NCBI GenBank assembly: GCA_025041195.1
Contig: JAKCFM010000001.1
Span: 868,001 to 932,000 of the forward strand
Source of the DNA: Halobacteriales archaeon YIM A00013
GTDB lineage: Archaea; Halobacteriota; Halobacteria; Halobacteriales; Haloarculaceae
DNA: 64,000 bases
Direction: 5' to 3'
The notes below the pieces were generated by a model. It was not told the DNA's origin and did no database searches. It saw nothing but the letters and a program-made list of their open reading frames with translations. The position numbers and the translations under genes are program-made. This document shows, piece after piece, positions 1-52,457 of the stretch. Numbering within the stretch: position 1 is the stretch's first letter; the number at the start of each line of letters is the position of its first letter.

Positions 1-148
1 CGTCGGCATTCTCATAGTACTGGTCGATATCGGTGTACAGTCCATGACTCAGATTACTCTGATTACCCTCAGGAGCACCAGAACCGACGCTCATCGTATT
101 CCCTTCGGCAAAGTTGCCGTTCGAATGGCGTTGCTTAGTCTGGCTCAT
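1..148 (-). CDS. Partial gene in the head block of the element (N-terminal 49 codons)
   Basis: Only the first 49 codons are inside the window; the gene runs off the left edge. The ATG at 148-146 overlaps the TGA of the previous gene (ATGA), so it is translationally coupled to it. The N-terminus, beginning MSQTKQRHSNGNF, is polar and Gly/Asn/Ser-rich. I do not recognise the family. In tailed-virus head operons the gene after protease and scaffold is often the major capsid protein; that is inference from position only. Confidence 0.6.
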   Translation of the reverse strand, partial: MSQTKQRHSNGNFAEGNTMSVGSGAPEGNQSNLSHGLYTDIDQYYENAD

Positions 149-495
149 TTCAGATCATGAAGTGCTACCTCTTTCGCCACATCGTTCTTGCCTTTGCGTT
201 TGCTCCCATCGGACAAGGTGACGGTGTTGAGCAGCTCATCACTGTCGTTGTAAGCAGCAAGCCCACTATCGCTAAAGGCTTCCCAGCAACGACGAGCGAC
301 TGACAGAGGGATTTCTTCCCCTGGTTCGAACACGACGGTGCGAGTATCGACTTCACCGAAACCGAATTCATCCAGCCAATCTTCGTCACCCTGGATACCC
401 ACCGGCAGCTCTTTACGGACTGCATGGACCTTCTCGGTTCCTTCGGGTAGTGGATCGTCATTATCACCGTCATTATCGCCTATGCTGGCTTTCAT
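145..495 (-). CDS. Hypothetical 116-residue protein of the head gene block
   Basis: An acidic 116-residue protein with no signal peptide or membrane segment. Its ATG (495-493) overlaps the upstream stop as ATGA, and its own stop overlaps the next start the same way, so it belongs to one tightly coupled leftward operon with the DUF2213 protein. The middle is folded-looking (WLDEFGFGEVDTRTVVFEPGE) and the C-terminus is Lys-rich. The family is not recognised. A head-decoration or stabilising protein would fit the position, but nothing in the sequence proves it. Confidence 0.7.
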   Translation of the reverse strand: MKASIGDNDGDNDDPLPEGTEKVHAVRKELPVGIQGDEDWLDEFGFGEVDTRTVVFEPGEEIPLSVARRCWEAFSDSGLAAYNDSDELLNTVTLSDGSKRKGKNDVAKEVALHDLK

Positions 496-926
496 TCGAT
501 ATCATCCTCGATTTCGTCCGTACTCTTCCAACCGCCCGAATCGACGTTCCCGGCCATATCAGCCTCTGCACCCCGTTGAAACGTATGATTGGCGTTAGAC
601 TGTCGTGCTTTGATACCCTCCATGAGTCCTTCCAGAGCTTCCATACTCCGGCTCATCAGTTGCTGTTCATCGTCTTGGGTATATTCGCCAGTAGAAACGA
701 TGTTAGCCACCATCTCGGCCTTCTCGCTATTCGCAGCCATCTCTTCGTATTCCAGTAGCTCTTCGTGTCGATCGCTGTCTAACACTTCCTTGCCTTCGAG
801 GTAGTGAGAAACGTTTTCCTCAATATCCTCCTTCGTGAGGAAATATCCGTTTTCATCAAGCAATTCGATCGTTTTTTCCATGGTCCTTGCAACGATATCC
901 TGCTTTTCGTTCTGTGAAATACTCAT
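492..926 (-). CDS. Hypothetical 144-residue helical protein, possible scaffold
   Basis: A highly acidic 144-residue protein whose first 110 residues are predicted mostly alpha-helical from their Glu/Met/Leu-rich composition. It sits directly after the prohead protease gene with a 4-base ATGA overlap. In tailed viruses the gene behind the protease is often the capsid scaffold, and an acidic helical protein fits that role. This is inference from position and composition; no motif is diagnostic. Confidence 0.7.
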   Translation of the reverse strand: MSISQNEKQDIVARTMEKTIELLDENGYFLTKEDIEENVSHYLEGKEVLDSDRHEELLEYEEMAANSEKAEMVANIVSTGEYTQDDEQQLMSRSMEALEGLMEGIKARQSNANHTFQRGAEADMAGNVDSGGWKSTDEIEDDIE

Positions 927-1891
927 AGCTGATCACTCACAACGGGCGAATTGCCCCAAACCGAACTGTTTGCGGTCGTTTCGTGTTCGTTATGGCAGTC
1001 ACACGTACCTTCGTTGGCCGTTGGACTGTGAATAGTACGATCATCCTCGGAGTGACAGCCACATTCATTCGAAGCCAACTGGTTCACACTCGGACCATTG
1101 CCCCAGTCCGAACCGTCAATTCCGTTGTTCGCTCGCTCTTGAGCGTTAATCATCGATTCAGTCTCGAACTTGTCGAGATTACCGACCATTTCTCGAAGGT
1201 CTTCGATTCGTTTGCCGTAGAGCAACGGCGGATTATCGTGTTCAGTACTGCTGTTTGCGCACAATTCGTCTACCAAAGCGTCTCGTGGTGCCTTTTCGAG
1301 ATTCATGTTCTGATTTGCTGTAATTCCTGCTGATGTTGGTTCTCGCATTGGAGTCGATGCACCTTCACCGAGTTTACACCCGTCCTGGATGTCGCACACA
1401 CCGCTCGACTCTGGTAGGAGTGCTACATGATCGGGTTCGAGGTTGCCTACGACATTTTCACGGTATTCACCGTCATAGGTTCCAGATCGAAGTTTGTCAC
1501 CGCGATAGCCCGATGATACGCTTATCATTCGACCTGATTCGATCTTTTGAGCAGCGAGTTTGCCAGCTTCCCCTTGCTTTCTCAGGCCAGGAAGGTGGAT
1601 CACTGCTGTGGCCTCTGTAAAAACGTCACCGTCTTTGCTCACGGTATGTGGGTCCTTCAAATATCCAACCCGGAGATAGGGCTGTTTATCGACAGAGACC
1701 AAACGGCCATTCTGTTCAGGATGACCGAGTGTGACCGGTATCTCGTTCCAGTCATCTGTTGCTTTCTGGATCTCATTAGCTGGAACATAGCCCCTATTCA
1801 GGTCCATATTCTTGATGAACGTAATCGGAAATTCCCGGATAGACCCGGAACCATCGGGCGGTACTACCTCCGTTTCGTTACTGATGATCAT
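923..1891 (-). CDS. DUF2213-type prohead (maturation) protease
   Basis: A 322-residue protein matching the DUF2213 family of viral maturation proteases, related to HK97 and herpes assemblins with a His-Ser-His catalytic set. Visible are His57 in VTLGHPEQ, a serine in GRMISVSSGY (Ser124 or Ser126), and His155 in NLEPDHVALLP, in the family's order and spacing. After about residue 165 the chain is a long polar tail with two Cys/His clusters near the end (ECGCHS and CDCHNEHE), which could bind metal. It is the first gene of the leftward head block; no portal or terminase gene lies upstream, where 700 bases of non-coding DNA separate it from the divergent replication genes. The role in capsid maturation is inferred from the family. 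Confidence 0.8.
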   Translation of the reverse strand: MIISNETEVVPPDGSGSIREFPITFIKNMDLNRGYVPANEIQKATDDWNEIPVTLGHPEQNGRLVSVDKQPYLRVGYLKDPHTVSKDGDVFTEATAVIHLPGLRKQGEAGKLAAQKIESGRMISVSSGYRGDKLRSGTYDGEYRENVVGNLEPDHVALLPESSGVCDIQDGCKLGEGASTPMREPTSAGITANQNMNLEKAPRDALVDELCANSSTEHDNPPLLYGKRIEDLREMVGNLDKFETESMINAQERANNGIDGSDWGNGPSVNQLASNECGCHSEDDRTIHSPTANEGTCDCHNEHETTANSSVWGNSPVVSDQL

Positions 1892-2380
1892 TTGGTTCGT
1901 ATCTTATCGGTAATACATTCTCTACATAGTAGTGTTTTTCGACGGTATAGGCAATCAGACGTGCAATAATCGGCTTTGAGTGTTTACAAAATAGTAACTT
2001 CGAAGGTCAGAGAGTGTAGAACGGAACCCGATTGTTCTACGATTGCCTGAGAAAGCTCTGTGTCGGTTCTGAAAGCGATTGATGAGACGGTCCAATGATT
2101 ACCTCTTGTATTCCTGAAACGCCTCTAAAAGCTTCTCTAGCAATCTGATAGAATAGAAAGACTGCGTTCGAAGAGTACGACAGCTATGATCATCAGGTAC
2201 GACAGTCTTTCAGCGAGTGCAAAGTGTATACCCCCGCTGAACATCCGTTTATATTCTCTGCAGGGCTAAGTCTCTTTCCCTAATTCCCCGTATACGAATT
2301 AGTTAGGGCCTCTATTCAGTGATTCGGGAAACGAAATGCTTTATAGGTTCGTCTATTAGCGACGAGTATACTAACCGCTC
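1892..2380. other. Divergent non-coding control region of the element
   Basis: About 490 bases between leftward head genes and rightward replication genes. I see no ORF with coding character. It holds several dyads: AAAGACTG and CAGTCTTT about 40 bases apart around 2157-2210, with GTACGACAG-like words repeated inside the interval, and a hairpin near 2279-2308 with arms CCCTAATTC and GAATTAG..AGGG. This is the natural place for an early/late switch, but no operator is proven. Confidence 0.4.
2340..2347 (+). promoter_or_regulatory. TATA box of the replication operon
   Basis: TTTATAGG preceded by a purine-rich BRE-like stretch (GGGAAACGAAA). It lies about 35-40 bases before the ATG at 2381, which would give a leader of only about ten bases. 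Called from spacing and composition. Confidence 0.5.
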
Positions 2381-2494
2381 ATGATGTTTGCAGGAATCCG
2401 GTGCTACAACACCGGAAAAGTTTGGGATGATGATAGAGCACAGACAACCTCACTGGGGGTAACTGAATCCGAACGAGGTGATTACTGTGTCTGA
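2381..2494 (+). CDS. 37-codon leader ORF upstream of the helicase gene
   Basis: A small ORF beginning MMFAGIRCYNTGKVW, first behind the TATA box at 2340. Its stop overlaps the GTG start of the next ORF (GTGTCTGA). A hairpin lies inside it (TCCGGTG, six-base loop, CACCGGA, 2397-2416). No family is recognised. The end-to-start overlaps with the next two genes are the main evidence that it is translated; it may be a regulatory leader peptide rather than a functional protein. Confidence 0.45.
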   Translation: MMFAGIRCYNTGKVWDDDRAQTTSLGVTESERGDYCV

Positions 2495-2618
2495 TTCTAC
2501 GTTAGTCCCGACGGGTGAAAAACCTGTTGTTACCGACTCTAACGTAGTTTTCGAGAGGTTTCAATATCCTTGCGGCATTCGCGTTTGGAAGCCGGTTGTG
2601 GGTGATGGAAATGAGTAG
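2487..2618 (+). CDS. 43-codon ORF coupled to the helicase gene
   Basis: A small ORF starting at GTG 2487 (MSDSTLVPTGEKPVV). The start is set by a strong archaeal Shine-Dalgarno, GAGGTGAT at 2475-2482, with a four-base spacer. The stop overlaps the ATG of the helicase gene (ATGAGTAG), and that gene uses the same GGTGAT plus four-base arrangement. The repeated signal layout argues for real translation. Function unknown. Confidence 0.55.
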   Translation: MSDSTLVPTGEKPVVTDSNVVFERFQYPCGIRVWKPVVGDGNE

Positions 2619-4947
2619 GAGTGATTACTCTGTACTCTCAGAACGATTTGCCGACAGTGTCGATTACCAGAGACCCCTGAAAACTGGGATTCTCCACATA
2701 GCCACCAACAACGAGCGAGCAATCCTAAGAGCTGCTCAATCGACGGGTAAGACCGTTATCGCAACGATGGTTTCACACGGAATCCTTGCTACCATCACCA
2801 GCGATCTTCGGGATAGCTACGATGAAACCGAAGAACTCGCGAAAGAATTCGGTGTGAAATTCCAGGAATTGCCCGTTGGAACTGAAGACTGCATAATCTT
2901 CAGTACGGACGAGTTCGAGGATACGAAGGCATACAAGGCATACGACGAACTAGGTTGGCCTATCGGTCTGATCCATGACGAACGTGATCCAGAGTGCCAA
3001 CACCAGGAAGGTGGCTGTCCGTACCAGCAAAAGAAGAAAGCACTCGATACCGACGCTCTGGGTATTCTGAACGGGAATAACGTTCAGCTGTACAATCCGG
3101 ATTACGTTAATGGTAGAGTCATTATCATTGACGAGGACGCTTTCGAGGATTTCAGGAACGAATACGAGAATCCATTGGACAAAATCAATCGATTCCTCGC
3201 TGCTCGTGATGAGTTCGACATTGACGAGATTCCGTTTCAACTAACGAACGACGTTAGGAAACACGTCATCGACACACTGGACGATATCGGGATTAGTCCG
3301 TACTTCTACAGGGATAGCGTCGGCCAATTCCATTCGAAGGCTCCACTGTTGACCTATGCGTACTTTCAGGAGCCGAGAGAGACTGCTGGACAGTACGTAG
3401 TCGATCTTCCAGGGAATAGGACAGCTACGTACAGAAACCTGAACAACGGCGAACGAACGGATGCTAACGGATTCGGTGATCCTTTCGCTGGTTCCATCGT
3501 AATGTTCGAACCCCCGAACCTTTCGAACGCTCAGGCAGTGATCGCTCTGGATGCTACTCCGTGTGATCCTGAGTGGGAACTATTGCTGGGTTCTGACGTG
3601 AAAAAATACCGCTTGTTCGATGACGAGGGTATGAACGAATATTTCAGATCGAACGGTCTGAAATTCAAGATGCTCAATAATCACATAGCTGCATCTCAAG
3701 GTGGTGATCTGAGCGTTTGGAAAATCGCGTCGTATCTCTTTGAGCTTTGGATGGAACACGGCGAGAAACCCGACCTAATCACGTCGAAAGCCATGTTCAA
3801 CCAACTCGAAGAAGCTGGGTTAGACTATCTGTACAAGGACAGAGACGTTGATCTCCACTTTGGGCATGTCCATGGCAAAAACGATCTACGAAAGTCGTCG
3901 TTGCTCTTAGTCGCGGGTTCGCCTTCCCGTTCGGACTGGTATTTCAAGTACCAAGCAGCGTTGTTCGGTGAAAGTGCAGTACCTGCCACCGATGATGACG
4001 GGAATCGTTTGAACGGCTACGATCTAGACTACCAGAACGATCTGGCAAACGAACTGCTCTATTCGAGTCGTCGCCACGAGACATTCCAAGCTGCTACTCG
4101 AATCGCTCGGGATGATGATGTTGATGGTACTGCGTACTTCGCCACCGGAATGGTCGTCGATGAACTGGACGTTGAGAAAGTTGGGCGAGATATCGGAAAC
4201 GGAAAGTTCGATGCATGTCACAACGTCCGATCTGAGAATGATCTGAAGGTACTCCAATCACTGATGGAAAACGATGGTGTGTCTACCTCCGATATAGCAT
4301 CACAGTTCGATTTCACTAATCGAACGGTTCGAAGAATACTCAATCGACTTCGAGATGATGGAGTAGTCAAAACTACAGGTGCTGGTCCATCGACAACCCA
4401 CCATCTCACCGATTCGGCTACCCGGACAAATCCCCTTTGTAAATCTATAAAGGGCGAATGTCCGGATAGCGATGACCCAATCCCATCGTTCAACCCGTTC
4501 GGTGATGTTGACCTGAGTCCACTCAATCCGAAGTCGGAATCTCGAACTCGAAACCGAGTCGAACGAAAAGACCCACGAGATTCGTTCAATCCTCGTTCGT
4601 GGGACGATTACACTGATTGGGAGATTGAAGTCATGAAGAAAGCCGAGAAACGAAAGCTGTTCGAACAGCAACGACTGGCGCTTGAATCGAACGAGAAATG
4701 GGACGATGTGCTCGACCCAATCGAATTGCCCGATCCAGAGGATACTTCGTGTTCGGATGAACACACCCCCGATCTGGAAGGGGAAACTCCGGACTCTAAC
4801 CCTGGGTGTAGCGAAGGACAAACCGGGTTCGACGGACCTGAGGTAACTCAAGAAGAGATAGAGCACTACGAACGAGGGCCAGAGTATCGTCAATCGGCCA
4901 GTGAGGGCGATATTCCCCCTGAGGTTCGAGCGAGACGAGCGACGTAG
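2611..4947 (+). CDS. Helicase-like replication protein with C-terminal winged helix
   Basis: A 778-residue protein. ATG 2611 is preferred over in-frame starts at 2596 and 2605 because GGTGAT at 2601-2606 lies four bases upstream. A Walker A motif (AAQSTGKT, Lys47) and a Walker B-like RVIIIDED (Asp174) flank a Cys-containing insert (Cys94, Cys129, and Cys136 in GGCPYQQ), which recalls the iron-sulfur region of XPD/DinG helicases, although a fourth Cys is not obvious. A motif VI-like FQAATRIARDDD follows in the C-terminal half, then a winged helix at about residues 541-592 (SDIASQFDFTNRTVRRIL) and a long acidic tail. Likely the replication helicase or initiator of the element. A conserved hairpin repeat (4418-4469) is embedded in the coding sequence. 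Confidence 0.7.
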   Translation: MSRSDYSVLSERFADSVDYQRPLKTGILHIATNNERAILRAAQSTGKTVIATMVSHGILATITSDLRDSYDETEELAKEFGVKFQELPVGTEDCIIFSTDEFEDTKAYKAYDELGWPIGLIHDERDPECQHQEGGCPYQQKKKALDTDALGILNGNNVQLYNPDYVNGRVIIIDEDAFEDFRNEYENPLDKINRFLAARDEFDIDEIPFQLTNDVRKHVIDTLDDIGISPYFYRDSVGQFHSKAPLLTYAYFQEPRETAGQYVVDLPGNRTATYRNLNNGERTDANGFGDPFAGSIVMFEPPNLSNAQAVIALDATPCDPEWELLLGSDVKKYRLFDDEGMNEYFRSNGLKFKMLNNHIAASQGGDLSVWKIASYLFELWMEHGEKPDLITSKAMFNQLEEAGLDYLYKDRDVDLHFGHVHGKNDLRKSSLLLVAGSPSRSDWYFKYQAALFGESAVPATDDDGNRLNGYDLDYQNDLANELLYSSRRHETFQAATRIARDDDVDGTAYFATGMVVDELDVEKVGRDIGNGKFDACHNVRSENDLKVLQSLMENDGVSTSDIASQFDFTNRTVRRILNRLRDDGVVKTTGAGPSTTHHLTDSATRTNPLCKSIKGECPDSDDPIPSFNPFGDVDLSPLNPKSESRTRNRVERKDPRDSFNPRSWDDYTDWEIEVMKKAEKRKLFEQQRLALESNEKWDDVLDPIELPDPEDTSCSDEHTPDLEGETPDSNPGCSEGQTGFDGPEVTQEEIEHYERGPEYRQSASEGDIPPEVRARRAT
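4418..4469. repeat. Dyad element A (inside the helicase gene)
   Basis: Outer arms CTACCCGGACA and TGTCCGGATAG pair with one mismatch. The inner arms CCCTTT and AAAGGG enclose GTAAATCTAT. The element is preceded by GATTCGGCTA, the same word that precedes element C at 5047. It is one of three copies sharing the inner core but not the outer-arm sequence, and here it lies in a translated frame. Confidence 0.75.
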
Positions 4948-4970
4948 AGTATTACGGTCGTAATATGGAA

Positions 4971-5020
4971 TCTCTGGACAAACTCCCTTTATAGATCTAA
5001 AAAGGGGAAGTGTCCAGAGA
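4971..5020. repeat. Dyad element B
   Basis: Perfect 10-base outer arms TCTCTGGACA (4971-4980) and TGTCCAGAGA (5011-5020) enclose an inner stem CCCTTT / AAAGGG with the loop sequence ATAGATCTAA. The core matches elements A and C; the outer arms differ but remain self-complementary. Just upstream, 4950-4965, is a separate dyad TATTACG-GT-CGTAATA. Confidence 0.85.
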
Positions 5021-5025
5021 ACTCA

Positions 5026-5056
5026 GATCGTATTACGGTGTTATTACGATTCGGCT
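5026..5056. repeat. 31-base direct repeat, copy 1
   Basis: Begins GATCGTATTACGGTG and ends ATTACGATTCGGCT; identical to 5111-5141. Each copy contains ATTACG twice. The copies follow elements B and C with an 85-base period. Confidence 0.85.
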
Positions 5057-5105
5057 ATCTACCCAAACCCCCTTTATAGATCTACAAAGGGCGAATGGGT
5101 AGATA
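5056..5105. repeat. Dyad element C
   Basis: Perfect 10-base outer arms TATCTACCCA (5056-5065) and TGGGTAGATA (5096-5105) around the inner stem CCCTTT / AAAGGG with ATAGATCTAC between. The outer arms are unrelated to element B while the inner core is almost identical, so pairing is conserved and sequence is not. Confidence 0.85.
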
Positions 5106-5110
5106 ATTCT

Positions 5111-5141
5111 GATCGTATTACGGTGTTATTACGATTCGGCT
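5111..5141. repeat. 31-base direct repeat, copy 2
   Basis: Identical to 5026-5056. It is followed by a weaker third hairpin (TGGAC-TTTC-GTCCA, about 5144-5157) in the position where another element of the B/C type would be expected. Confidence 0.85.
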
Positions 5142-5182
5142 TGTGGACTTTCGTCCATGTCGGTTCAGAACGTATCAGTGAG

Positions 5183-5606
5183 CTGAGTACACCGGTGTAC
5201 TCAGATAGCTTACAGGAATCGGCGCGCGCGCCGATCTCTTTTCGGTCTGGATTCGACTGTATCAATCGTAGTGCGCGCACTACTTTCCTTTCACTCGTGA
5301 ATCATCAGGATCAAATGTAGACGCGCGTCTACTCTCTTTTCCATAGATATTGGGGTGGAATAAGATCGAACGCACATCCGAATTCCTTTCGAATTGGAAT
5401 CGTTCGTATCAATCGTTTCGGCACCGAAACTTCCATCAGGATTCAGAACGTATCAGTGAACTAGGTGACAATTGTCACTCAGTGCGTTTACATAAGCTAT
5501 CTGGGAGACTTTTGTCTCCCAATGTGTTTTCATATCCATCCTGACAACAGACGGCGTCTGTGTTAAGATTGTTTGCATAACTCATCTGAGTGGTCCGGAC
5601 CACTCA
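5183..5606. repeat. Array of nine palindromes with mostly unrelated arms
   Basis: Dyads at 5183-5204 (22 bases, half-site CTGAGTACACC), 5218-5235 (half ATCGGCGCG), 5268-5283 (half GTAGTGCG), 5317-5332 (half GTAGACGC), 5415-5430 (GTTTCGG-CA-CCGAAAC), 5465-5478 (half GTGACAA), 5502-5521 (TGGGAGAC-TTTT-GTCTCCCA), 5547-5561 (ACAGACG-G-CGTCTGT) and 5587-5606 (half TGAGTGGTCC). Several midpoints are 49 bases apart or twice that. The flanks recur in imperfect form: GTATCAATC or GTATCAGTGA on the left, CATCAGGAT between units. The array lies between the helicase gene and the next small gene, where a replication origin or structured RNA would be plausible. Confidence 0.85.
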
Positions 5607-5694
5607 ATCTACTGATGTATTCCCGATGGGCCATCACCGCTATTCGTCCGGAAACACGTACCTCAAGTGGGTGAGAGTACAATATTGGGTTGTA

Positions 5695-6018
5695 ATGTCC
5701 GAACGAGATGAGATTAATATCGATGAGTTGGAAAAGGGGGATAAGGTCAAATGGAACGATCGGAAACAGTGGCTGATCGTTACGGATACATCTAAGGAAG
5801 AGAGTGCGTATATCGAAGGGCCTCGGGGTGGGAAATACGAGATTATTCCTTCTGGAAAATTCGATATCAGAACCATGTATGACTCTCCCAAACCATACAA
5901 AGGGTATATCGTTAGTCACGAATCGAGTTACATAGGCCAAGGGAAAGAAGTCGATACGATCCTCGTAGAGAAAGAGAACGGACAGTTGAGGGAATTGAAG
6001 AAATGGACGAGGTATTAA
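5695..6018 (+). CDS. Hypothetical 107-residue small protein of the element
   Basis: A 107-residue protein from ATG 5695 (MSERDEINIDELEKGDKVKW). Upstream in-frame codons back to 5590 run through the last palindrome and lack coding character, so the later ATG is chosen. Beta-rich character with short strands (DKVKWNDRKQWLIV, YIEGPRGGKYEII) suggests a small barrel. No family is recognised; the 82-residue protein at 7058 has a similar look (KVLRVHNGEISV). No clear Shine-Dalgarno, so the message may be leaderless. Confidence 0.6.
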   Translation: MSERDEINIDELEKGDKVKWNDRKQWLIVTDTSKEESAYIEGPRGGKYEIIPSGKFDIRTMYDSPKPYKGYIVSHESSYIGQGKEVDTILVEKENGQLRELKKWTRY

Positions 6019-6479
6019 TGAATCCGAACCGATCGACTGAGTAACCCGCGAATTCTTTTATATACTCCCGAATCAACTGGTTCCCGAATTCCAAGGGTAT
6101 AGCGTCTCTATCACTATCCCCCGCAGTATAATGGGAGGGGGGGAGTAAGTAATGGGGATTAGGGGCAAGGGTATAGGTAGAGACTGGTTCTTTTTCTCCT
6201 ATCGGGTTTATCGATTGCTATCGATGAGAGACACAGAGAGACGTTCTGTGCGGTTCGTGAGTAAAAGCAACACCAATCATCACCTACTCGCTCAAATCGA
6301 TTGTAAGGGTACTCAGAGCGTTCTGGCTCAATCGTTGTAGTCGGGTGCTTCGTCGTAACTCTATCCGAAGAATTCCTAAATCGTTCCAGAAATCCATAGT
6401 CGATTGCTGAATTCGTTGTATGATTTTCCAAGTATTCGATGGATTATTGTACCGTTAGGTCATAATACACAACGTGTTA
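6019..6479. other. Non-coding stretch of 460 bases
   Basis: AT-rich, with a TATA-like TTTTATATA near 6056-6064 and a long G run near 6131-6143. An ORF of 62 codons at 6152 has no coding signature and is not called. A TATA-like ATTATTGTA (about 6443-6451) precedes the ribbon-helix-helix gene by about 30 bases and may be its promoter. Confidence 0.4.
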
Positions 6480-6701
6480 ATGACCAAGAAAACCACATCG
6501 ATTCGACTATCGGACGACGCACGTGATACCCTCGGTAAATACGCCCAAGAGCAGGATATGACGCGTTCTGAGGTGATAGAGTCGGTTATCATCGAAGAGG
6601 ATTTGCGCCCGTACTCAGTCAAAACCCACCTGGACCGTATAGAGGGCGAGATGAGCGAGATTAAGCAGCTGTTGGGCGATATCTTGGAGGATGATTCGTA
6701 A
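6480..6701 (+). CDS. Ribbon-helix-helix (CopG/Arc-type) DNA-binding protein
   Basis: A 73-residue protein. Residues 4-40 (KTTSIRLSDDARDTLGKYAQ...MTRSEVIESVI) match a ribbon-helix-helix domain: a short beta strand with alternating polar residues, then two helices. The C-terminus (LDRIEGEMSEIKQLLGDIL) is an amphipathic helix suited to oligomerisation. ATG 6480 is chosen over GTG 6474. The TAA overlaps the next ATG (TAATG), so the two genes are coupled. Likely a repressor or copy-control protein of the element; an antitoxin role is possible but unproven. Confidence 0.75.
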   Translation: MTKKTTSIRLSDDARDTLGKYAQEQDMTRSEVIESVIIEEDLRPYSVKTHLDRIEGEMSEIKQLLGDILEDDS

Positions 6702-6931
6702 TGTCTACTACAGTTCAAATTCGGAGTACGCAGGAGAAAACCGACGATATTCAAACGATGATTGCGCTTCGCAAGGGAATCACGGAATCGAAGGCAACAG
6801 AGCTTATCGACTGCAAATATCAGGAATTCAAGCGTCATCAGATTTCATTCATCGAAGAGGATAAGCTCCGATTCTTCGCCGCTCGTCACGTCTTTATCGA
6901 TTACGAGAAGGACCTTCGGAACAATGAATGA
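6701..6931 (+). CDS. Hypothetical 76-residue protein coupled to the RHH gene
   Basis: A 76-residue protein with charged, helical character (KGITESKATELIDCKYQEFKRHQ). Its ATG overlaps the stop of the RHH gene and its own stop overlaps the start of a tiny downstream ORF (ATGAATGA). No family is recognised. The coupling to an RHH regulator suggests a shared function, for example regulator plus partner, but the sequence gives no toxin signature. Confidence 0.6.
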   Translation: MSTTVQIRSTQEKTDDIQTMIALRKGITESKATELIDCKYQEFKRHQISFIEEDKLRFFAARHVFIDYEKDLRNNE

Positions 6932-7010
6932 AATCGTGATTTTCTACATCGCTTTGACTCTCTTCGTCGTTCAGGGCCACACAGAGGGCGCTCAGAACGT
7001 TTCTAATTGA
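6924..7010 (+). CDS. 28-residue hydrophobic peptide
   Basis: A tiny ORF of 28 codons, MNEIVIFYIALTLFVVQG and a short polar tail, overlapping the end of the 76-residue gene by eight bases. Residues 3-17 form one membrane-spanning stretch. The translational overlap supports expression; the size makes it uncertain. A small membrane peptide of the element is the simplest reading. Confidence 0.4.
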   Translation: MNEIVIFYIALTLFVVQGHTEGAQNVSN

Positions 7011-7057
7011 TATCCGGTGCCAATCCTGCGATACATTGAAACCGCTCAGAAACCGAT

Positions 7058-7306
7058 ATGAGAAAGATGAGTTTTGATTCGATTTCGTTAGGCGAAGAAG
7101 TCTGTTGGCCGCATAAGATAGACTGGGGCAAGGTACTCCGGGTTCATAATGGCGAAATCAGTGTGAGTTCTGGCGATAGATTCGTTTTCGAGGTGAAGAA
7201 TTCCGACCCGTTCGAAATAGTGAGTACAGTAACAGGGGAACGAATATTTGCGAATCATCTAAGAGTACGAGATGAGACTGGAAAAATTCGAAAAATAGAG
7301 TGTTAA
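7058..7306 (+). CDS. Hypothetical 82-residue small protein
   Basis: An 82-residue protein (MRKMSFDSISLGEEVCWPHK); a second ATG three codons in (7067) is an equally possible start. Beta-rich with a probable small-barrel fold (GKVLRVHNGEISVSSGDRFVFEV). No family recognised. It is separated from both neighbours and from the 107-residue gene at 5695, to which it has only a loose resemblance. Confidence 0.55.
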   Translation: MRKMSFDSISLGEEVCWPHKIDWGKVLRVHNGEISVSSGDRFVFEVKNSDPFEIVSTVTGERIFANHLRVRDETGKIRKIEC

Positions 7307-7446
7307 AATCGTTAGAGAGATAATTTATCGGCAATATACTCCTATTCAAACCATTCTCTTAATCCGTTTCTGAGGGCGTTTTGGGACAATCCGATGCTCA
7401 TTACTCGGTGATCGATGGAATGGCTTAGAGAGCGTTGTGAGCGTTC

Positions 7447-7971
7447 GTGAAGGAGTACGACAGTCGTCGGGAGGCTCTTCTCGACAATATTCAGTCGGAT
7501 GAGAACCGAGAGGATCTAACACTGCCTGCTCAGGCCCGAAAATGGTCGAAAGCGGTCCGTGTGGACTACGTTGAGGAGGGTCAACGGTACTTTGGATATG
7601 TCAACGAACTAGGTGACAATTGTCACTCAGAAAGCTTACATATTCCTTCCCGGAGTATGGGAGATGTGAAACGGATTGCGAAGGGTACCGAATACTCGGC
7701 TCAGCATGTCTCTCGGGTAGTTTCGTACATTTTGTACCCTGAACACGTGCAAGAAAATATCGGAGAACGTGGTGGACTATCGAAGACCGTTGCGTATACG
7801 GTCCCATCCCGGTGTACGGATGTGGAGAATGCTCAGAAGGCTCTGGAACTAATCGCAGAACTCGGTGAGTATTTCGAGGGTAAAGGTGGTATCGACAGCG
7901 AGAAGCGGGATATCATCAACTGGTCGATCAAGCAGGCAAACGAGACTGGTGAGGTTTCGGTTTGGAGTTAG
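7447..7971 (+). CDS. HTH-containing protein of the element (174 residues)
   Basis: A 174-residue protein starting at GTG 7447. The middle (SMGDVKRIAKGTEYSAQHVSRVVSYIL, about residues 73-99) has the layout of a helix-turn-helix. Codons 54-62 (NELGDNCHS) are encoded by a 25-base segment, 7606-7630, identical to palindrome six of the non-coding array (5458-5482). The stop lies inside the presumed start of the next gene. The family is not recognised; a DNA-binding role in replication, partition or control is inferred. Confidence 0.6.
   Translation: MKEYDSRREALLDNIQSDENREDLTLPAQARKWSKAVRVDYVEEGQRYFGYVNELGDNCHSESLHIPSRSMGDVKRIAKGTEYSAQHVSRVVSYILYPEHVQENIGERGGLSKTVAYTVPSRCTDVENAQKALELIAELGEYFEGKGGIDSEKRDIINWSIKQANETGEVSVWS
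7606..7630. repeat. In-gene copy of palindrome six
   Basis: 25 bases identical to 5458-5482, centred on the 14-base palindrome with half-site GTGACAA. The following bases (CTCAGAAAGCTTACA) match, with one change, the right flank of palindrome one at 5200-5214. It lies in a reading frame, so the copy is both coding and dyad. Confidence 0.8.
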
Positions 7972-8602
7972 CGATGCTGATCTACTCGCTAAGTCGATTT
8001 CCGACAACAAGCGTGATATCAGTCAAGATACCGGGCCACTCCAACGCGCGCAAGCTGTTAAGCGGCTTAAAGACATGGAGAATCTTACTAACGGTGAGCT
8101 TGGCGAACGGCTTAGCGTCTCAAAGTCTACAATTCGGAAGTGGTTAGAACCGTTCAATTGGGAAGAGGATACTTGTATTCAGCCCAATATCTATGGTAAA
8201 GAGATCGGCGCGCGCGCCGCTTTCAATCCACGGGATATTCCGGTGAGAACAATGATTGCGGTTCGTCGTGCAGTCGGTGGTGGAGAACTGGGGGTGAAGG
8301 CACTCAAGTATGCACAGGAACATGATTTGCCATCATCGGCAGTTAGAGAGGCTAAAGGCGACAATGACTATGATTTCTTTGTCGGACTTTGGAACGAGGC
8401 TAATTCACGTTCGGACGAATTAATAGAATCATCCCTATCTAACCACACTGTCTATGATACACACCCAGGAACTGAGGGGTGTCAAAAAATTAATTTGGGA
8501 GAAATTTACCCGTCGATGGGCGAGATAAGACCTTCAAACAGCGTATGCGGGAAGGTAAGGAGTTTGAAGAGATTGAAGGGGAGAAGGCGGAACAGCGTAT
8601 GA
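7949..8602 (+). CDS. ParB/KorB-like HTH protein, probably frameshifted near its end
   Basis: From GTG 7949 the frame encodes a protein with a ParB-like helix-turn-helix near residues 30-70 (RAQAVKRLKDMENL then NGELGERLSVSKSTIRKWLEP). The start is uncertain; it overlaps the previous gene by 23 bases and lacks a Shine-Dalgarno. After codon 185 or so the text becomes basic and implausible, whereas the -1 frame continues sensibly from about 8494 (PVDGRDKTFKQRMREGKEF) into 8545-8964. A one-base loss between about 8500 and 8515 is the simplest explanation; a programmed shift is possible. Codons near 8198-8219 carry an inverted copy of palindrome two. Role in partition or copy control is inferred. 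Confidence 0.55.
   Translation: MRFRFGVSDADLLAKSISDNKRDISQDTGPLQRAQAVKRLKDMENLTNGELGERLSVSKSTIRKWLEPFNWEEDTCIQPNIYGKEIGARAAFNPRDIPVRTMIAVRRAVGGGELGVKALKYAQEHDLPSSAVREAKGDNDYDFFVGLWNEANSRSDELIESSLSNHTVYDTHPGTEGCQKINLGEIYPSMGEIRPSNSVCGKVRSLKRLKGRRRNSV
8198..8219. repeat. Inverted in-gene copy of palindrome two
   Basis: 22 bases identical to the reverse complement of 5220-5241, including the GC-rich palindrome with half-site CGGCGCG and a flanking AAAGAGAT. Encodes KEIGARA in the ParB-like frame. Confidence 0.75.
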
Positions 8603-8964
8603 AGTCTACCCTGAAACAGAATCAGAACAATACCGCTACCGTCGAACGACGAGAGCGGGAGAAAGGTACCACGAACGAGAAGGTAGCAGAACGCATTGGA
8701 ATCGGTTCTGCCAGTACGTATAGACGTGCTTGTAAGGTATGGGACTATGCACAGGGGTACGACGAACATGAAAATGTCCCTCCACAGTTAGCCGAATGGA
8801 TGGTGGACAGTATGGACAGCATACAATGTAGAAACAGTTGGGACATTCTATACTGTATAGTTGAATTCGATCCGAAGCACGTAGCTAAAGGTGGAGCATC
8901 GGCTACGAGCATTTGCCTTTCTGACTGTGTTGTCTGGGTTCGGAAATATATAACAGTAGTATAG
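8545..8964 (+). pseudogene. Out-of-frame C-terminal part of the ParB-like protein
   Basis: This frame is open from 8494. Read after the N-terminal part it gives a charged helical segment and a second HTH-like stretch (NEKVAERIGIGSASTYRRACKVWDYA). ATG 8545 has no Shine-Dalgarno, so independent translation is doubtful. After about 8815 (WMVDSMDS) the sequence changes character, with dyads such as CTATAC-T-GTATAG near 8851-8863, and the last 50 codons look non-native, consistent with lying at the edge of the integrated element. Confidence 0.45.
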
Positions 8965-8971
8965 ACGTTAA

Positions 8972-9160
8972 CAATATATGATGCTCATATTCGGGCTGGG
9001 CCGTGAAGACGTGTTCCCAATCGAAGATCTGGGGATCAGAAACGCGATGGATTCGCTCTATGATGAGCCATCCAGGGCTGAAAAACATGAGATCGCCACG
9101 CAGTGGCGCCCCAAACGATCGATTGCTGCACTCTATCTCTGGAAACATTATGAGCAGTAA
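8972..9160 (+). pseudogene. 3' remnant of an alkA-type DNA-3-methyladenine glycosylase gene
   Basis: About 60 codons ending HYEQ match the C-terminal end of AlkA/HhH-GPD DNA glycosylases: LIFGLGREDVFPIEDLGIR (the conserved helix-hairpin-helix exit with the catalytic Asp in the ED-x-G region) and WRPKRSIAALYLW. Family members are near 190-300 residues; everything upstream is missing and a stop (TAA 8969-8971) precedes the remnant in frame. The sequence before it belongs to the AT-rich element, so the junction near 8970 looks like the element's right end, inserted into or replacing the 5' part of the host gene. Confidence 0.75.
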
Positions 9161-9540: not shown

Positions 9541-9933
9541 ATGACACGTACACTGCGAACCGCACTGACCGCACTCCTCGTCGCGACGCTCGTCGCAGGC
9601 GGGGCTGGTACCGCTGCTGCAGAGTCAACCGCTATCAATAGCGGCGATACCACGGTCGTAAACGATAACGATCTTGTGGACGTGGACGATACGTTGAATA
9701 ACATCTCGGCGAACGTCCTGGGTATCCAGGTCGACGACTCGGAGCTTAACGTGCTCTCTAAAGACGACGACCACCACTACCACCCACAGGAGTCGACCGA
9801 GATCAACAGCGGTGGCACCACGGTCGTGAACGACAACGATCTGGTCGAGCTGGACGAGACGGCCAACAACATCAGCGCTAACGTGCTGGGTGTGCAGGTC
9901 GACGACAGCGACGCTGACATCCTCTCAGCGTAA
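9541..9933 (+). CDS. Secreted two-repeat protein
   Basis: A 130-residue exported protein. Residues 1-27 are a Sec signal peptide (MTRTLRTALTALLVATLVAGG...AAAE). The rest is two copies of a roughly 45-residue unit, each INSG-x-TTVVNDNDLV-x-x-D-x-T-x-NNISANVLG-x-QVDDS, joined by a His-rich linker (DDDHHYH). The unit is acidic, Asn/Val-rich and probably beta-structured; the family is not recognised. The alternating NDN/NNIS text recalls surface fibre or coat proteins, but that is only resemblance. It is followed by a T-run terminator and a one-repeat paralogue at 10285. Confidence 0.75.
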   Translation: MTRTLRTALTALLVATLVAGGAGTAAAESTAINSGDTTVVNDNDLVDVDDTLNNISANVLGIQVDDSELNVLSKDDDHHYHPQESTEINSGGTTVVNDNDLVELDETANNISANVLGVQVDDSDADILSA

Positions 9934-9951
9934 TTCGGCAGAGTCACCGCC

Positions 9952-9958
9952 TTTTTTT
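9952..9958 (+). terminator. T-run terminator after the two-repeat gene
   Basis: Seven T residues 19 bases after the stop codon, typical of archaeal intrinsic termination. Confidence 0.5.
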
Positions 9959-10024
9959 GGTTGCTAGCCCGGTAGCGCTAGCCGTAAAATACGAGCTAAC
10001 ATGAGTTGCCGATTCAACTGGCTA

Positions 10025-10050
10025 TTTGATCCTCCGGTAGCTATTATACT
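10025..10050 (+). promoter_or_regulatory. Duplicated promoter, copy 2
   Basis: Matches 9262-9287 (TTTGAT-CTCCGGT and TTATACT). An ATGACACGA at 10082, about 33 bases downstream of the TATA box, opens a 60-codon ORF of unknown meaning before the real gene at 10285. Confidence 0.55.
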
Positions 10051-10226
10051 TCTCCTCGTGGAGTAGGACGACACTGGGGGAATGACACGAGCAGATATAC
10101 TTCTGCGAGCGGCTGTCCCGTTTGCAGATCCACGTCTAACCGTTCACATGGTGGCCACAGCCGGGTACAGACATAGCTGCCGGCAGCCCCGGTTGACGAT
10201 CTCGTGTGAACACCGGACAGATCTAC

Positions 10227-10249
10227 AATGCGTGCGTCACGCACGCATT
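10227..10249 (+). repeat. Hairpin in the leader of the one-repeat gene
   Basis: Perfect 11-base arms AATGCGTGCGT and ACGCACGCATT separated by one base, 36 bases before the ATG at 10285. As RNA it would form a strong stem just upstream of the start codon; no such stem is obvious in the first leader. Confidence 0.65.
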
Positions 10250-10284
10250 GATGCCGTGTACTGACCCCAGCCACGAATCAGACC

Positions 10285-10509
10285 ATGACACGAATACTAC
10301 GGACGACGTTGTTAGTCGCATTGATCGTCGCTATTTCAGCAGGTGGCGTCGGAACGGCCGTCGCCGAAACGACGGAGATCAACAGCGGCTGTACGACAGT
10401 GGTCAACGATGACGACCTTGTCGACATCGATGATTCATTGAACAACATCTCAGCAAACGTGCTGGGCGTGCAGGTCGACGACAGTAACGCAGACATCCTC
10501 TCCAGCTAA
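10285..10509 (+). CDS. Secreted one-repeat paralogue
   Basis: A 74-residue exported protein: signal peptide at residues 1-27 (MTRILRTTLLVALIVAISAGG) and a single INSGCTTVVNDDDLVDID...NNISANVLGVQVDDS unit, strongly similar to both units of the 130-residue protein at 9541. One Cys replaces a small residue in INSGCTT. The gene keeps its own copy of the promoter, so the pair arose by tandem duplication followed by unit loss or gain. Confidence 0.75.
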   Translation: MTRILRTTLLVALIVAISAGGVGTAVAETTEINSGCTTVVNDDDLVDIDDSLNNISANVLGVQVDDSNADILSS

Positions 10510-16863: not shown

Positions 16864-17481
16864 ATGGGAACCGAATATACGACCACGGAGATCAAGCAGA
16901 AGTACGATGACTCCGCCAGCAGGTACGCTTTCACTGAGCCTGTACAGGAGTTACTCGGCGTTAAGCGGCTCAGGCGTCGGCTGGTGGGGCAAGCATCCGG
17001 AAGGGTGCTAGAGGTTGCATGCGGAACGGGGGCGAACTTCCCGTATTATCCACCGGATTGTGAAATCACGGCCGTCGATCTGAGTTCTGAGATGATTGAT
17101 ATCGCCAAACAGCGGGCCGAGAAACAAGGTTTGGATATCGAATTTCGGCGCATGGACGCTGAAGCACTTGCGTTTCCGGACGACCGGTTCGATACCGTGG
17201 TGTCGACGTTGACGCTGTGTACCTTCCCCGATCCCGTTGGCGCACTCCGTGAGATGCAGCGGGTCATGAAACCGGATGGTCGAATCCTCTTGGTAGAACA
17301 TGGACGGAGTGATAACCGGCTGGTCGCGTGGTTCCAGGACGTCCGAGCGGACGCCCACGCCCAACAATTGGGCTGTCATTGGAATCGGGAACCGCTTGAA
17401 CTCGTAACGGAAGGTGGGCTCTCTCCGGTCGCCACGAGACGGACGTTTCTGGGGATCTTCCATGAAATCGAGGCGAAATGA
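16864..17481 (+). CDS. Class I SAM-dependent methyltransferase
   Basis: A 205-residue methyltransferase. SAM motif I is VLEVACGTGANFPYYP (about residues 45-60), followed by AVDLSSEMIDIA and the motif TLCTFPDPVGALREMQRVMKPDGRILLVEHG, as in UbiE/phosphatidylethanolamine-methyltransferase-like enzymes. The substrate cannot be read from sequence. A strong hairpin follows 78 bases after the stop. Confidence 0.85.
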   Translation: MGTEYTTTEIKQKYDDSASRYAFTEPVQELLGVKRLRRRLVGQASGRVLEVACGTGANFPYYPPDCEITAVDLSSEMIDIAKQRAEKQGLDIEFRRMDAEALAFPDDRFDTVVSTLTLCTFPDPVGALREMQRVMKPDGRILLVEHGRSDNRLVAWFQDVRADAHAQQLGCHWNREPLELVTEGGLSPVATRRTFLGIFHEIEAK

Positions 17482-17558
17482 ATATCTTCGGATTGGTTTG
17501 CAGTCTCGCAGGAATCTCTCGGTTTTTACCGCATAGATGAGTGGAGGCCGTTTGGCTC

Positions 17559-17583
17559 ACCAGAACTGCTCCGCAGTTCTGGT
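17559..17583. terminator. Strong hairpin, possible terminator
   Basis: Perfect 11-base arms ACCAGAACTGC and GCAGTTCTGGT with a three-base loop. It follows the methyltransferase gene, but no T run follows it, so an inserted palindromic element is an alternative. Confidence 0.45.
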
Positions 17584-17706
17584 TAGCAGCCAGACGCAAT
17601 CCGTCCGCCTGATCACAAGCATCCGCCCTTTTCCTGCCATTTGAAGGCCAGCGATTGGTACACCTCCTCCGCCCGTCGGTAGATCAGGTGTGATGCAACA
17701 CAGCGA

Positions 17707-30181: not shown

Positions 30182-30202
30182 CGAGAGAGCTTAGCTCTCT
30201 CG
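30182..30202. repeat. Perfect hairpin before the PhnB-like gene
   Basis: Arms CGAGAGAGCT and AGCTCTCTCG separated by one base. It lies between the divergent dehydrogenase gene and the damaged 5' end of the PhnB-like gene; it could be a terminator or the trace of an inserted palindrome. Confidence 0.45.
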
Positions 30203-30413
30203 TCATCACGAAAGATCTCTGACCTTTCGAACGACTCCTTGAGGAAGGGGTCTTCGTTCCTATCCCACGATAACGCCGAATTTACGGTTCGATACCAATG
30301 CGCAAGAGGCGGTTGAGCGGTACACCACAATCTTTTCCGATGCGACGATCGGCGACACCACCCGATATACCGCAGCATCCGCTGCTGCATCGGGACAGCC
30401 AGAAGGGAGTGTT

Positions 30414-51080: not shown

Positions 51081-51275
51081 TTACAACCGAGTAAGGTTCG
51101 TCGCACGCGGGCCTTTATCGGCCTGCTCAATCTCGAATTCGACTTCCTGACCTTCCTCCAGGTCAGGGCCGCCGATGTCTTCCATGTGGAAGAACACGTC
51201 CTCGTCGGCTTCTTCGGAATCGATGAAACCGTAGCCACCGGTGTCGTTGAAGAAATCAACTTTGCCAGTCGCCAT
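51081..51275 (-). CDS. Cold-shock protein, copy 7 (distal end of array)
   Basis: A 64-residue cold-shock-domain protein ([20 protein letters not shown]). RNP1 reads GGYGFID and RNP2 DVFFHM, the two nucleic-acid-binding strands. It binds single-stranded RNA or DNA, typically as an RNA chaperone. Last gene of seven; a T-rich stretch near 51045-51056 may end transcription. Confidence 0.93.
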
Positions 51276-51277
51276 GA

Positions 51278-51472
51278 TTAGAGCCTCGTGAGGTTTGTTG
51301 CGCGTGGGCCTTTATCGGCCTGCTCAATCTCGAATTCGACCTCCTGACCTTCCTCCAGGTCAGGGCCGCCGATGTCTTCCATGTGGAAGAACACGTCCTC
51401 GTCAGCTTCTTCGGAATCGATGAAGCCGTAGCCACCGGTGTCGTTGAAGAAATCAACTTTGCCAGTCGCCAT
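51278..51472 (-). CDS. Cold-shock protein, copy 6
   Basis: 64 residues, identical in sequence to copy 7. The ATG follows the previous stop by two bases (TAA-TC-ATG). The only ribosome-binding signal is the GAGG just before that stop. Confidence 0.93.
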
Positions 51473-51474
51473 GA

Positions 51475-51669
51475 TTAGAGCCTCGTAAGGTTTGTTGCGC
51501 GTGGGCCTTTATCGGCCTGCTCAATCTCGAATTCGACCTCCTGACCTTCCTCCAGGTCAGGGCCGCCGACATCTTCCATGTGGAAGAACACGTCCTCGTC
51601 AGCTTCTTCGGAATCGATGAAGCCGTAGCCACCGGTGTCGTTGAAGAAATCAACTTTGCCAGTCGCCAT
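51475..51669 (-). CDS. Cold-shock protein, copy 5
   Basis: 64 residues, differing from copies 6 and 7 by one change (HMEDV for HMEDI). Same two-base gap to its neighbour. Confidence 0.93.
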
Positions 51670-51671
51670 GA

Positions 51672-51866
51672 TTAGAGCCTCGTAAGGTTTGTTGCGCGTG
51701 GGCCTTTATCGGCCTGCTCAATCTCGAACTCGACTTCCTGACCTTCCTCCAGGTCAGGGCCGCCGATGTCTTCCATGTGGAAGAACACGTCCTCGTCGGC
51801 TTCTTCGGAATCGATGAAGCCGTAGCCACCGGTGTCGTTGAAGAAATCAACTTTGCCAGTCGCCAT
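51672..51866 (-). CDS. Cold-shock protein, copy 4
   Basis: 64 residues, protein identical to copy 7; the DNA differs from neighbouring copies at a few silent positions, so the copies are not products of a single very recent event. Confidence 0.93.
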
Positions 51867-51868
51867 GA

Positions 51869-52063
51869 TTAGAGCCTCGTAAGGTTTGTTGCGCGTGGGC
51901 CTTTATCGGCCTGCTCAATCTCGAACTCGACTTCCTGACCTTCCTCCAGGTCAGGGCCGCCGATGTCTTCCATGTGGAAGAACACGTCCTCGTCGGCTTC
52001 TTCGGAATCGATGAAGCCGTAGCCACCGGTGTCGTTGAAGAAATCAACTTTGCCAGTTGCCAT
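51869..52063 (-). CDS. Cold-shock protein, copy 3
   Basis: 64 residues, protein identical to copies 4, 6 and 7. It begins 197 bases upstream of copy 4, as each copy does relative to the next. Confidence 0.93.
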
Positions 52064-52065
52064 GA

Positions 52066-52260
52066 TTAGAGCCTCGTGAGGTTTGTTGCGCGTGGGCCTT
52101 TATCGGCCTGCTCAATCTCGAATTCGACCTCCTGACCTTCCTCCAGGTCAGGGCCGCCAACATCTTCCATGTGGAAGAACACGTCCTCGTCAGCTTCCTC
52201 GGAATCGATGAAGCCGTAGCCACCGGTGTCGTTGAAGAAATCAACTTTGCCAGTTGCCAT
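52066..52260 (-). CDS. Cold-shock protein, copy 2
   Basis: 64 residues, with HMEDV as in copy 5. First of the six near-identical copies. Confidence 0.93.
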
Positions 52261-52262
52261 GA

Positions 52263-52457
52263 TTAGAGCCTCGTGAGGTTCGTCGCACGCGGGCCTTTAT
52301 CCGCTTTTTCAATATCGAACTCGACTTCCTGACCTTCCTCCAGGTCAGGGCCACCCACGTCCTCCATGTGGAAAAACACGTCCTCGTCGGACTCGTCAGT
52401 ATCGATGAAACCGTAACCGCCAGTGTCGTTGAAGAAATCAACCGTACCGGTCGCCAT
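52263..52457 (-). CDS. Cold-shock protein, copy 1 (promoter-proximal, diverged)
   Basis: 64 residues and the most different copy: [20 protein letters not shown], then [16 protein letters not shown] and EVEFDIEKADKG. It looks like the parental gene, from which the downstream six were amplified. It sits behind the only promoter of the array. Confidence 0.93.
   Translation of the reverse strand: MATGTVDFFNDTGGYGFIDTDESDEDVFFHMEDVGGPDLEEGQEVEFDIEKADKGPRATNLTRL

Follow-up and report, generated by a model that had tools for sequence, protein, structure and literature searches.

Dyad sites beside a putative replication helicase gene in an integrated haloarchaeal virus remnant: different palindromes between matching flanks

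In most DNA-binding sites it is the letters that are conserved, and in most hairpins it is the stem, whose loop is free to vary. In plasmid origins of the iteron and inverted-repeat type, short direct words and inverted repeats lie directly behind rep, with iterons and operator dyads keeping their letters, and in integron attC sites the palindromic structure is conserved around a variable central sequence, with conserved end boxes. The REP/BIME sequences, which are RAYT-mobilised palindromes tagged with GTAG or CGTC, have loops of 2 to 20 nt, frequent G-T pairs and many copies genome-wide (PMC3733652), and Rickettsia palindromic elements, which are about 150 bp long, are found in frame in many unrelated protein genes (PMC10969869). 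Mitochondrial repetitive hairpin-forming elements are palindromic repeats dispersed in the intergenic regions, and sometimes in the genes, of a small replicon (PMC2800124). In the 'melting-pot' rolling circle of circoviruses (PMC2690592, citing Cheung 2004), template strand switching regenerates the origin palindrome, so that symmetry is kept without the letters.

The locus described here is an array of palindromes, or dyads, at 5183-5606 of the window, which is the whole 64-kb stretch of haloarchaeal DNA that was analysed and to which positions refer unless another locus is named. The array resembles REP/BIME in its short palindromes, alternative complementary stem letters, intragenic and intergenic copies and clustering (PMC3733652), but it is symmetric to the centre, wobble pairs are rare, the copies are confined to one element, and no REP tag (terminal GTAG or CGTC outside the stem) was found, GTAG occurring only within the arms of units U3 and U4. 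A possible palindromic insert in frame recalls the Rickettsia elements (compare the 22 extra residues of rep, below), while the units here are about 45-60 bp long, belong to one element and are arrayed beside rep. Dispersal over a small replicon is shared with the mitochondrial elements, for which the accessible text describes hairpins with shared motifs and not swapped cores between conserved flanks (PMC2800124). As in circoviruses, there is a palindrome beside rep, but the circovirus origin has a single stem-loop, its loop is fixed and its Rep is of the HUH kind, compared with many loop-free dyads and a helicase-type Rep here. Unlike in iteron and inverted-repeat origins, the inner letters of the array dyads are free. 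An integron attC array was rejected, with no GTTRRRY (R') or RYYYAAC (R'') boxes in 5150-5640, no cassettes, and cores symmetric to the centre. As far as the sources at hand describe them, the REP, Rickettsia, mitochondrial and circovirus systems lack exchangeable loop-free cores between conserved symmetric half-sites.

The array belongs to an integrated element of about 11.5 kb (C1:865497-876986, C1 being the contig whose positions 868001-932000 make up the window) which was inserted into an alkA-like DNA glycosylase gene and which is an integrated haloarchaeal virus remnant. The 9-bp core ATGATGCTC is present at both the left and the right element ends, and the split alkA has its C-terminus at 8978-9160 and its N-terminus at 17119-17544 of locus L067. 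The main features are:

1..8986, no strand: part of the element within the window; the left end and the integrase precede the window
L067 18131-19078: Xer-type tyrosine integrase of the element
923..1891, minus strand: head-maturation-protease-like gene (DUF2213), with relatives in the haloarchaeal tailed viruses HATV-3 and Hardycor1
2596..4947, plus strand: rep, putative replication helicase, SF2 XPD/DinG-like fold with a C-terminal winged helix

In the joined attP (window 1-8986 plus L067 17497-20000), GTATAGAC repeats lie on either side of the core. The other element genes are small orphan genes, a ribbon-helix-helix (RHH) gene at 6474 and two ParB-like fragments. The ParB-like gene at 7865-8602 lacks the N-terminal ParB domain of its homologues, so the element end there looks decayed; it overlaps the orphan gene at 7447-7971, for which homologue searches found none, out of frame, and the second ParB-like fragment lies downstream (window 7447-8964). 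The relatives at loci L056, L058 and L059 have two full-length ParB-like paralogues about 1.8 kb apart. Outside the element, two similar tandem secreted-protein-like ORFs (MTRTLRTAL... and MTRILRTTL...) with repeated NSGxTTVVNDxDLV motifs occupy 9541-10509, and a 25-bp near-perfect palindrome, CAATGCGTGCGTCACGCACGCATTG, lies between them at 10226-10250.

An exhaustive search of 5150-5625 (perfect arms of at least 6, loops of 0 to 12) returned exactly nine inverted repeats, the number reported by an earlier note on this DNA, with centres at 5193.5, 5226.5, 5275.5, 5324.5, 5422.5, 5471.5, 5511.5, 5554 and 5596.5. Six of the nine are loop-free and perfect to the centre, the remaining loops are 2, 4 and 1, and none has a loop of 3 or of 5 to 12. 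Seven strong dyads were observed, in comparison to 0.10 in dinucleotide-preserving shuffles (maximum 2 in 300). The window holds 14 perfect even palindromes of at least 14 bp, and 8 of the 14 are of this family (six in the array and two in nearby genes). The 49-base spacing of midpoints that had been claimed was upheld, in that 49 divides ten of the pairwise distances between centres (p about 0.004 when units are placed at random and the best period is allowed), and six units stand in this register when the weak position at 5373.5 is counted. Recurring flanks were likewise confirmed (for example, 19/20 for the left flank of U1 and U6). The earlier note had also called the palindromes mostly unrelated and placed the feature at 5183-5606. 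Both statements need correction: the flanks are homologous and some cores are related (for example, TGAGT...CCGG...ACTCA in the first and ninth), and the feature begins earlier, TATTACG words and a pair of 50-bp dyads being present from 4949 onward, and has copies in three genes. When the array was compared by blast with its own genome and the window, the coding-site matches were at 7606-7642 (E 3e-8), at 8176-8222 in reverse (E 1e-5) and at 4410-4460 in rep (E 4e-7). The units and their copies are as follows:

4950, 4959 (minus strand), 5031, 5042, 5116 and 5127, spanning 4950..5133, plus strand: six TATTACG words, iteron-like
4971..5020, plus strand: family C dyad 1, with a variable outer stem and a constant inner stem CCCTTT/AAAGGG around TAGATCTA
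5056..5105, plus strand: family C dyad 2, an 85-bp direct repeat with dyad 1; outer stem changed on both sides relative to dyad 1
5183..5204, no strand: U1, palindrome CTGAGTACACCGGTGTACTCAG; left flank (5164-5182) nearly identical to that of U6
5218..5235, no strand: U2, palindrome ATCGGCGCGCGCGCCGAT; core the same as the site in the ParB-like gene
5268..5283, no strand: U3, palindrome GTAGTGCGCGCACTAC
5317..5332, no strand: U4, palindrome GTAGACGCGCGTCTAC; right flank as in the ParB-like gene site (antisense), arms different
5364..5383, no strand: weak, possibly eroded dyad at the expected 49-bp position (centre 5373.5)
5415..5430, no strand: U5, near-palindrome GTTTCGGCACCGAAAC; left flank common to U3
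5465..5478, no strand: U6, palindrome GTGACAATTGTCAC; core identical to the site in the 7447-7971 gene
5502..5521, no strand: U7, inverted repeat TGGGAGAC-TTTT-GTCTCCCA; family A copy, inverted
5547..5561, no strand: U8, odd palindrome ACAGACGGCGTCTGT
5587..5606, no strand: U9, palindrome TGAGTGGTCCGGACCACTCA; core related to U1
about 4420..4464, plus strand: family C copy within rep
7593..7642, plus strand: family A copy in the orphan gene 7447-7971; palindrome at 7613-7626
8176..8222, minus strand: family B copy in the ParB-like gene 7865-8602, antisense to the gene; palindrome at 8206-8219

Group A consists of the orphan-gene site, U6, U1 and U7 (reversed), group B of the ParB-like gene site (reversed), U4, U2, U3 and U5, and group C of the rep site and the two large dyads at 4971-5105. 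The centre-aligned alignments of groups A and B are all gap-free. As judged from these comparisons, the array palindromes are the cores of one repeat family, with paralogous units. The copy in rep lies within 22 residues that are missing from both closest homologues, in a region predicted to be disordered, as expected of an insertion. For the ParB-like gene, no insertion was seen (a linker of 36 residues in comparison to 32-51 in homologues), and DTCIQPNIYG in the flank of its site resembles NTIFHPEYEG of the homologues, suggesting that the flank there may be native gene sequence which was copied into the array. The direction of copying between genes and array may therefore differ from site to site.

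Because no second genome with the array was found among those searched, paralogous copies inside the one element, rather than relatives, were used to examine whether symmetry is kept. In group B, 8/8 pairs were changed on both sides and 95% of the cells were paired, in comparison to 23% to 60% when the partner was slid by 1-3 columns. For group A, 6/11 pairs were changed on both sides, with 91% of cells paired (27% to 42% when slid), and in the outer stem of group C, whose inner stem is constant, 5/10 were changed on both sides, with 97% paired (20% to 52% when slid). Taken together, double-sided change was found in 19/29 varying-or-invariant stem pairs (outer stem only for C) and 91% to 97% of cells were paired in comparison to 20% to 60% in the slid controls, over which the stems are favoured by having been read partly from the same sequences, while the double-change counts are independent of that. 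One-sided (wobble) changes were absent from groups B and C and few in A, and B and C have no G-U pairs. The earlier proposal that symmetry rather than sequence is kept is thus supported by the paralogues, on the basis of copies within one element.

The identity of flanks and arms varies separately. U4 and the ParB-like gene site are identical at 19/20 positions of the right flank and at 3/16 of the arms, and U1 and U6 at 19/20 of the left flank and 6/18 of the arms. In the opposite direction, U6 and the orphan-gene site have arms identical at 18/18 with 12/20 in each flank, and U2 and the ParB-like gene site have arms identical at 15/16 with flanks at 6/20 and 12/20. These contrasts indicate that the core and each of the two flanks were inherited separately, the breakpoints lying where the palindrome meets its flanks. 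Beside flanks that are 19/20 identical, 5-6 of the 8-9 palindrome pairs differ on both sides, most of them still pairing, and 6/8 changed pairs beside such a flank are not easily obtained by slow neutral compensation.

Outside the variable core, there is a conserved symmetric tier of GTATCA/TATGTAA-like half-sites. In the half-sites of the group-A type (U1, U6, U7, U9 and the orphan gene), counted outward from the centre, C at 7, A at 10 and T at 17 are present in 10/10, and A at 19 and C at 26 in 9/10. Across the array, left-right matches at 17-22 from the centre numbered 27/54 in comparison to 13.7 at random centres (p<1/4000) and to 20.2 in a mispaired-halves control (p 0.03), several flanks being copies of one another, so that this second tier provides few independent observations. 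Read by eye, TGATAC occupies 17-22 in the A units and 12-17 in the B units, so that each side is displaced by 5 bp and the two together by 10 bp, or about one helical turn. A flank motif search gave a composite of weak words (information content of 5.4 in comparison to 4.5-5.0 in shuffles), which is less clear than the centre-anchored table. The half-sites are probably the contacts of a dimeric DNA-binding protein, for which a dimer on both is the natural reading of the sequence. It had been held unlikely that one protein binds all the palindromes; since the half-sites on either side of the variable cores keep a fixed distance from the dyad centre, the flanks could be bound by a single protein, and that objection is weakened.

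Relatives of rep were found in 126/391 haloarchaeal genomes (wHTH-only matches included), one named relative being from a Haloarculaceae archaeon. The alignment of 28 homologues has a GK[ST] P-loop, an invariant DE, a QxxxRxxR motif and conserved cysteines. The AlphaFold model reached a pLDDT of 75 with the 28-sequence input (35 with a 3-sequence input), and its best matches were XPD (Foldseek E 5e-12) and DinG (Z 14.5, rmsd 5.8 over 441 residues). No HUH or AAA+ initiator fold appeared for rep among the structure-alignment rows, although this is purely negative evidence. From its fold, its winged helix and its position in the element, rep may be a replication initiator. As at iteron-type origins, direct repeats lie beside rep, whose end is at 4947: the 85-bp direct repeats and the TATTACG words, all six copies of which are at 4950-5133, with none elsewhere in the element part inside the window. 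A change of skew is not strictly required at an origin; the minimum of cumulative GC skew, which is confounded by gene direction, is at about 1.5-2 kb and not at 5.2 kb. An origin structure, one of the possibilities raised earlier, is therefore plausible for a region adjoined by a replication helicase gene and iteron-like words, but unproved, with the GC-skew turning point near 2 kb and not at the array.

Searches with the DNA of the region against phage and plasmid records, all genomes of the family and the genus returned only its own element, plus one chance-level genus match (E 0.03). The proteins of rep, the orphan gene and the downstream gene had no relative among viral contigs. When about 90 loci containing a relative of rep, of the ParB-like genes, of the gene at 5698 or of the integrase were scanned for palindrome clusters, no comparable array was found: the cluster at locus L140 is of a different, looped class in a TIR-bordered element, and that at L031 consists of long-arm, looped inverted repeats unlike the array units. 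The L140 cluster has eight dyads in about 450 bp (17190-17650), inside an element of about 560 bp bordered by CAGCCAGAAAGCCCC inverted repeats. Together with window 30182-30230 and L066 16223-16267, it represents another class of haloarchaeal chromosomal hairpins, with variable stems and 3-nt loops (TTC/GGA/TTA), which are often paired and joined by TGATGA/TCATCA. At 51130-52350, dyads recur every 197 bp as part of a 197-bp tandem repeat of at least 7 copies. Several identities were also rejected for the array. As regards integrase attachment sites, the units were aligned with attP, and shuffled sequences did as well as the best alignment (225/300 and 119/300); Rfam returned only a sub-threshold chance match (22.7 in comparison to a gathering score of 57 bits); the cores differ, with no identical repeat at the 49-bp period as in a CRISPR array; and for a ParB/parS centromere with one specific palindrome the inner palindromes differ, though outer half-sites are shared.

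The explanation that we favour, tentatively and as somewhat short of an even chance, is that 4949-5640 is a replication or maintenance control region of the virus remnant, in which the dyad sites change through short exchanges while selection favours symmetry. A rival to be taken seriously, although we consider it unlikely, is the palindrome-making mobile element suggested earlier, in the form of a small REP-, RPE- or RHE-like repeat which spread within the element, also in frame into genes, and whose stems diverge with compensation because mobility needs hairpin formation. It would account for copies inside and outside genes in both orientations and for the extra residues of rep; a Y1 transposase family exists in the host genome, and REP families are reported to include subfamilies that differ by complementary replacements in the stem, as well as copies inside genes (PMC3733652). 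However, searches of the own genome gave no copy outside the element, the units have neither the loop nor the G-U tolerance of REPs, the register is regular, the ParB-like gene has no insertion relative to homologues and its DTCIQPNIYG looks native, and REP/RAYT linkage was rejected, with Y1_Tnp matches only on contig C2 and the element on C1. Rather more doubtful is an array that serves a dimeric element protein, either ParB-like or the RHH gene product, as a centromere for partition or as a set of operators, further sites being dispersed through genes. In agreement with it, the element has ParB-like and RHH genes, and the symmetric half-sites are conserved at 7-11 and 17-21 from the centre, about 10 bp from each other, whereas a dimer reading half-sites needs no palindromy of the inner 14-18 bp to the very centre, the core sequences differ, and the ParB-like gene is truncated and apparently decayed.

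It is improbable that the units form hairpins in a non-coding transcript or act as a series of terminators. The fold energy (z = -5.45) is one that any palindromes would give, and although right flanks are pyrimidine-rich in some units, no Rfam family was matched, there are hardly any G-U pairs, and the symmetry reaches the loop positions in 6/9, where symmetry of the central four bases has a chance of about 5e-6 under independence if only the hairpin mattered (own calculation). Symmetry through the centre and few wobble pairs favour symmetry of duplex DNA over RNA hairpins, so the earlier suggestion of a small-RNA family is disfavoured. That the palindromes are functionless by-products of mutation alone, from snap-back or template-switch copying at recombination junctions, appears the least probable of these readings: core and flank breakpoints do coincide, and perfect arms stand between diverged flanks, but the 49-bp register, the conserved outer half-sites and the clustering beside rep argue against it.

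In the favoured control-region explanation, the region directly behind rep holds, besides the iteron-like TATTACG words, about eleven dyad units that belong to one repeat family. Every such unit would have conserved degenerate half-sites symmetric about its centre, likely bound by a dimeric protein, and the letters of its inner segment would be free as long as the segment is perfectly palindromic in duplex DNA. Symmetry would be kept by selection, perhaps aided by template-switch repair copying one arm onto the other, while short ectopic exchanges would shuffle flanks and cores, and the region would serve initiation or maintenance together with rep. The origin reading does not by itself explain the copies inside genes or the free change of cores. 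It is conceivable, though on our estimate unlikely, that these are a class of dyad sites of an archaeal mobile element in which duplex symmetry itself is recognised, the inner palindromes being cassettes exchangeable between conserved flanks, including those in coding genes, and kept symmetric by an active process, such as a nuclease or recombinase that senses symmetry, or repair by template switching or from a hairpin template.

Matching flanks around different centre-symmetric palindromes are predicted by neither simple operator evolution nor RNA-stem covariation. If confirmed in relatives, the locus would be a natural test bed for the making, exchange and maintenance of perfect palindromes on a small replicon, and it might expose a protein or repair process that reads the symmetry of DNA and not its sequence. 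A further outcome is a candidate origin region for integrated haloarchaeal elements of a poorly known family, whose replication helicase is XPD/DinG-like.
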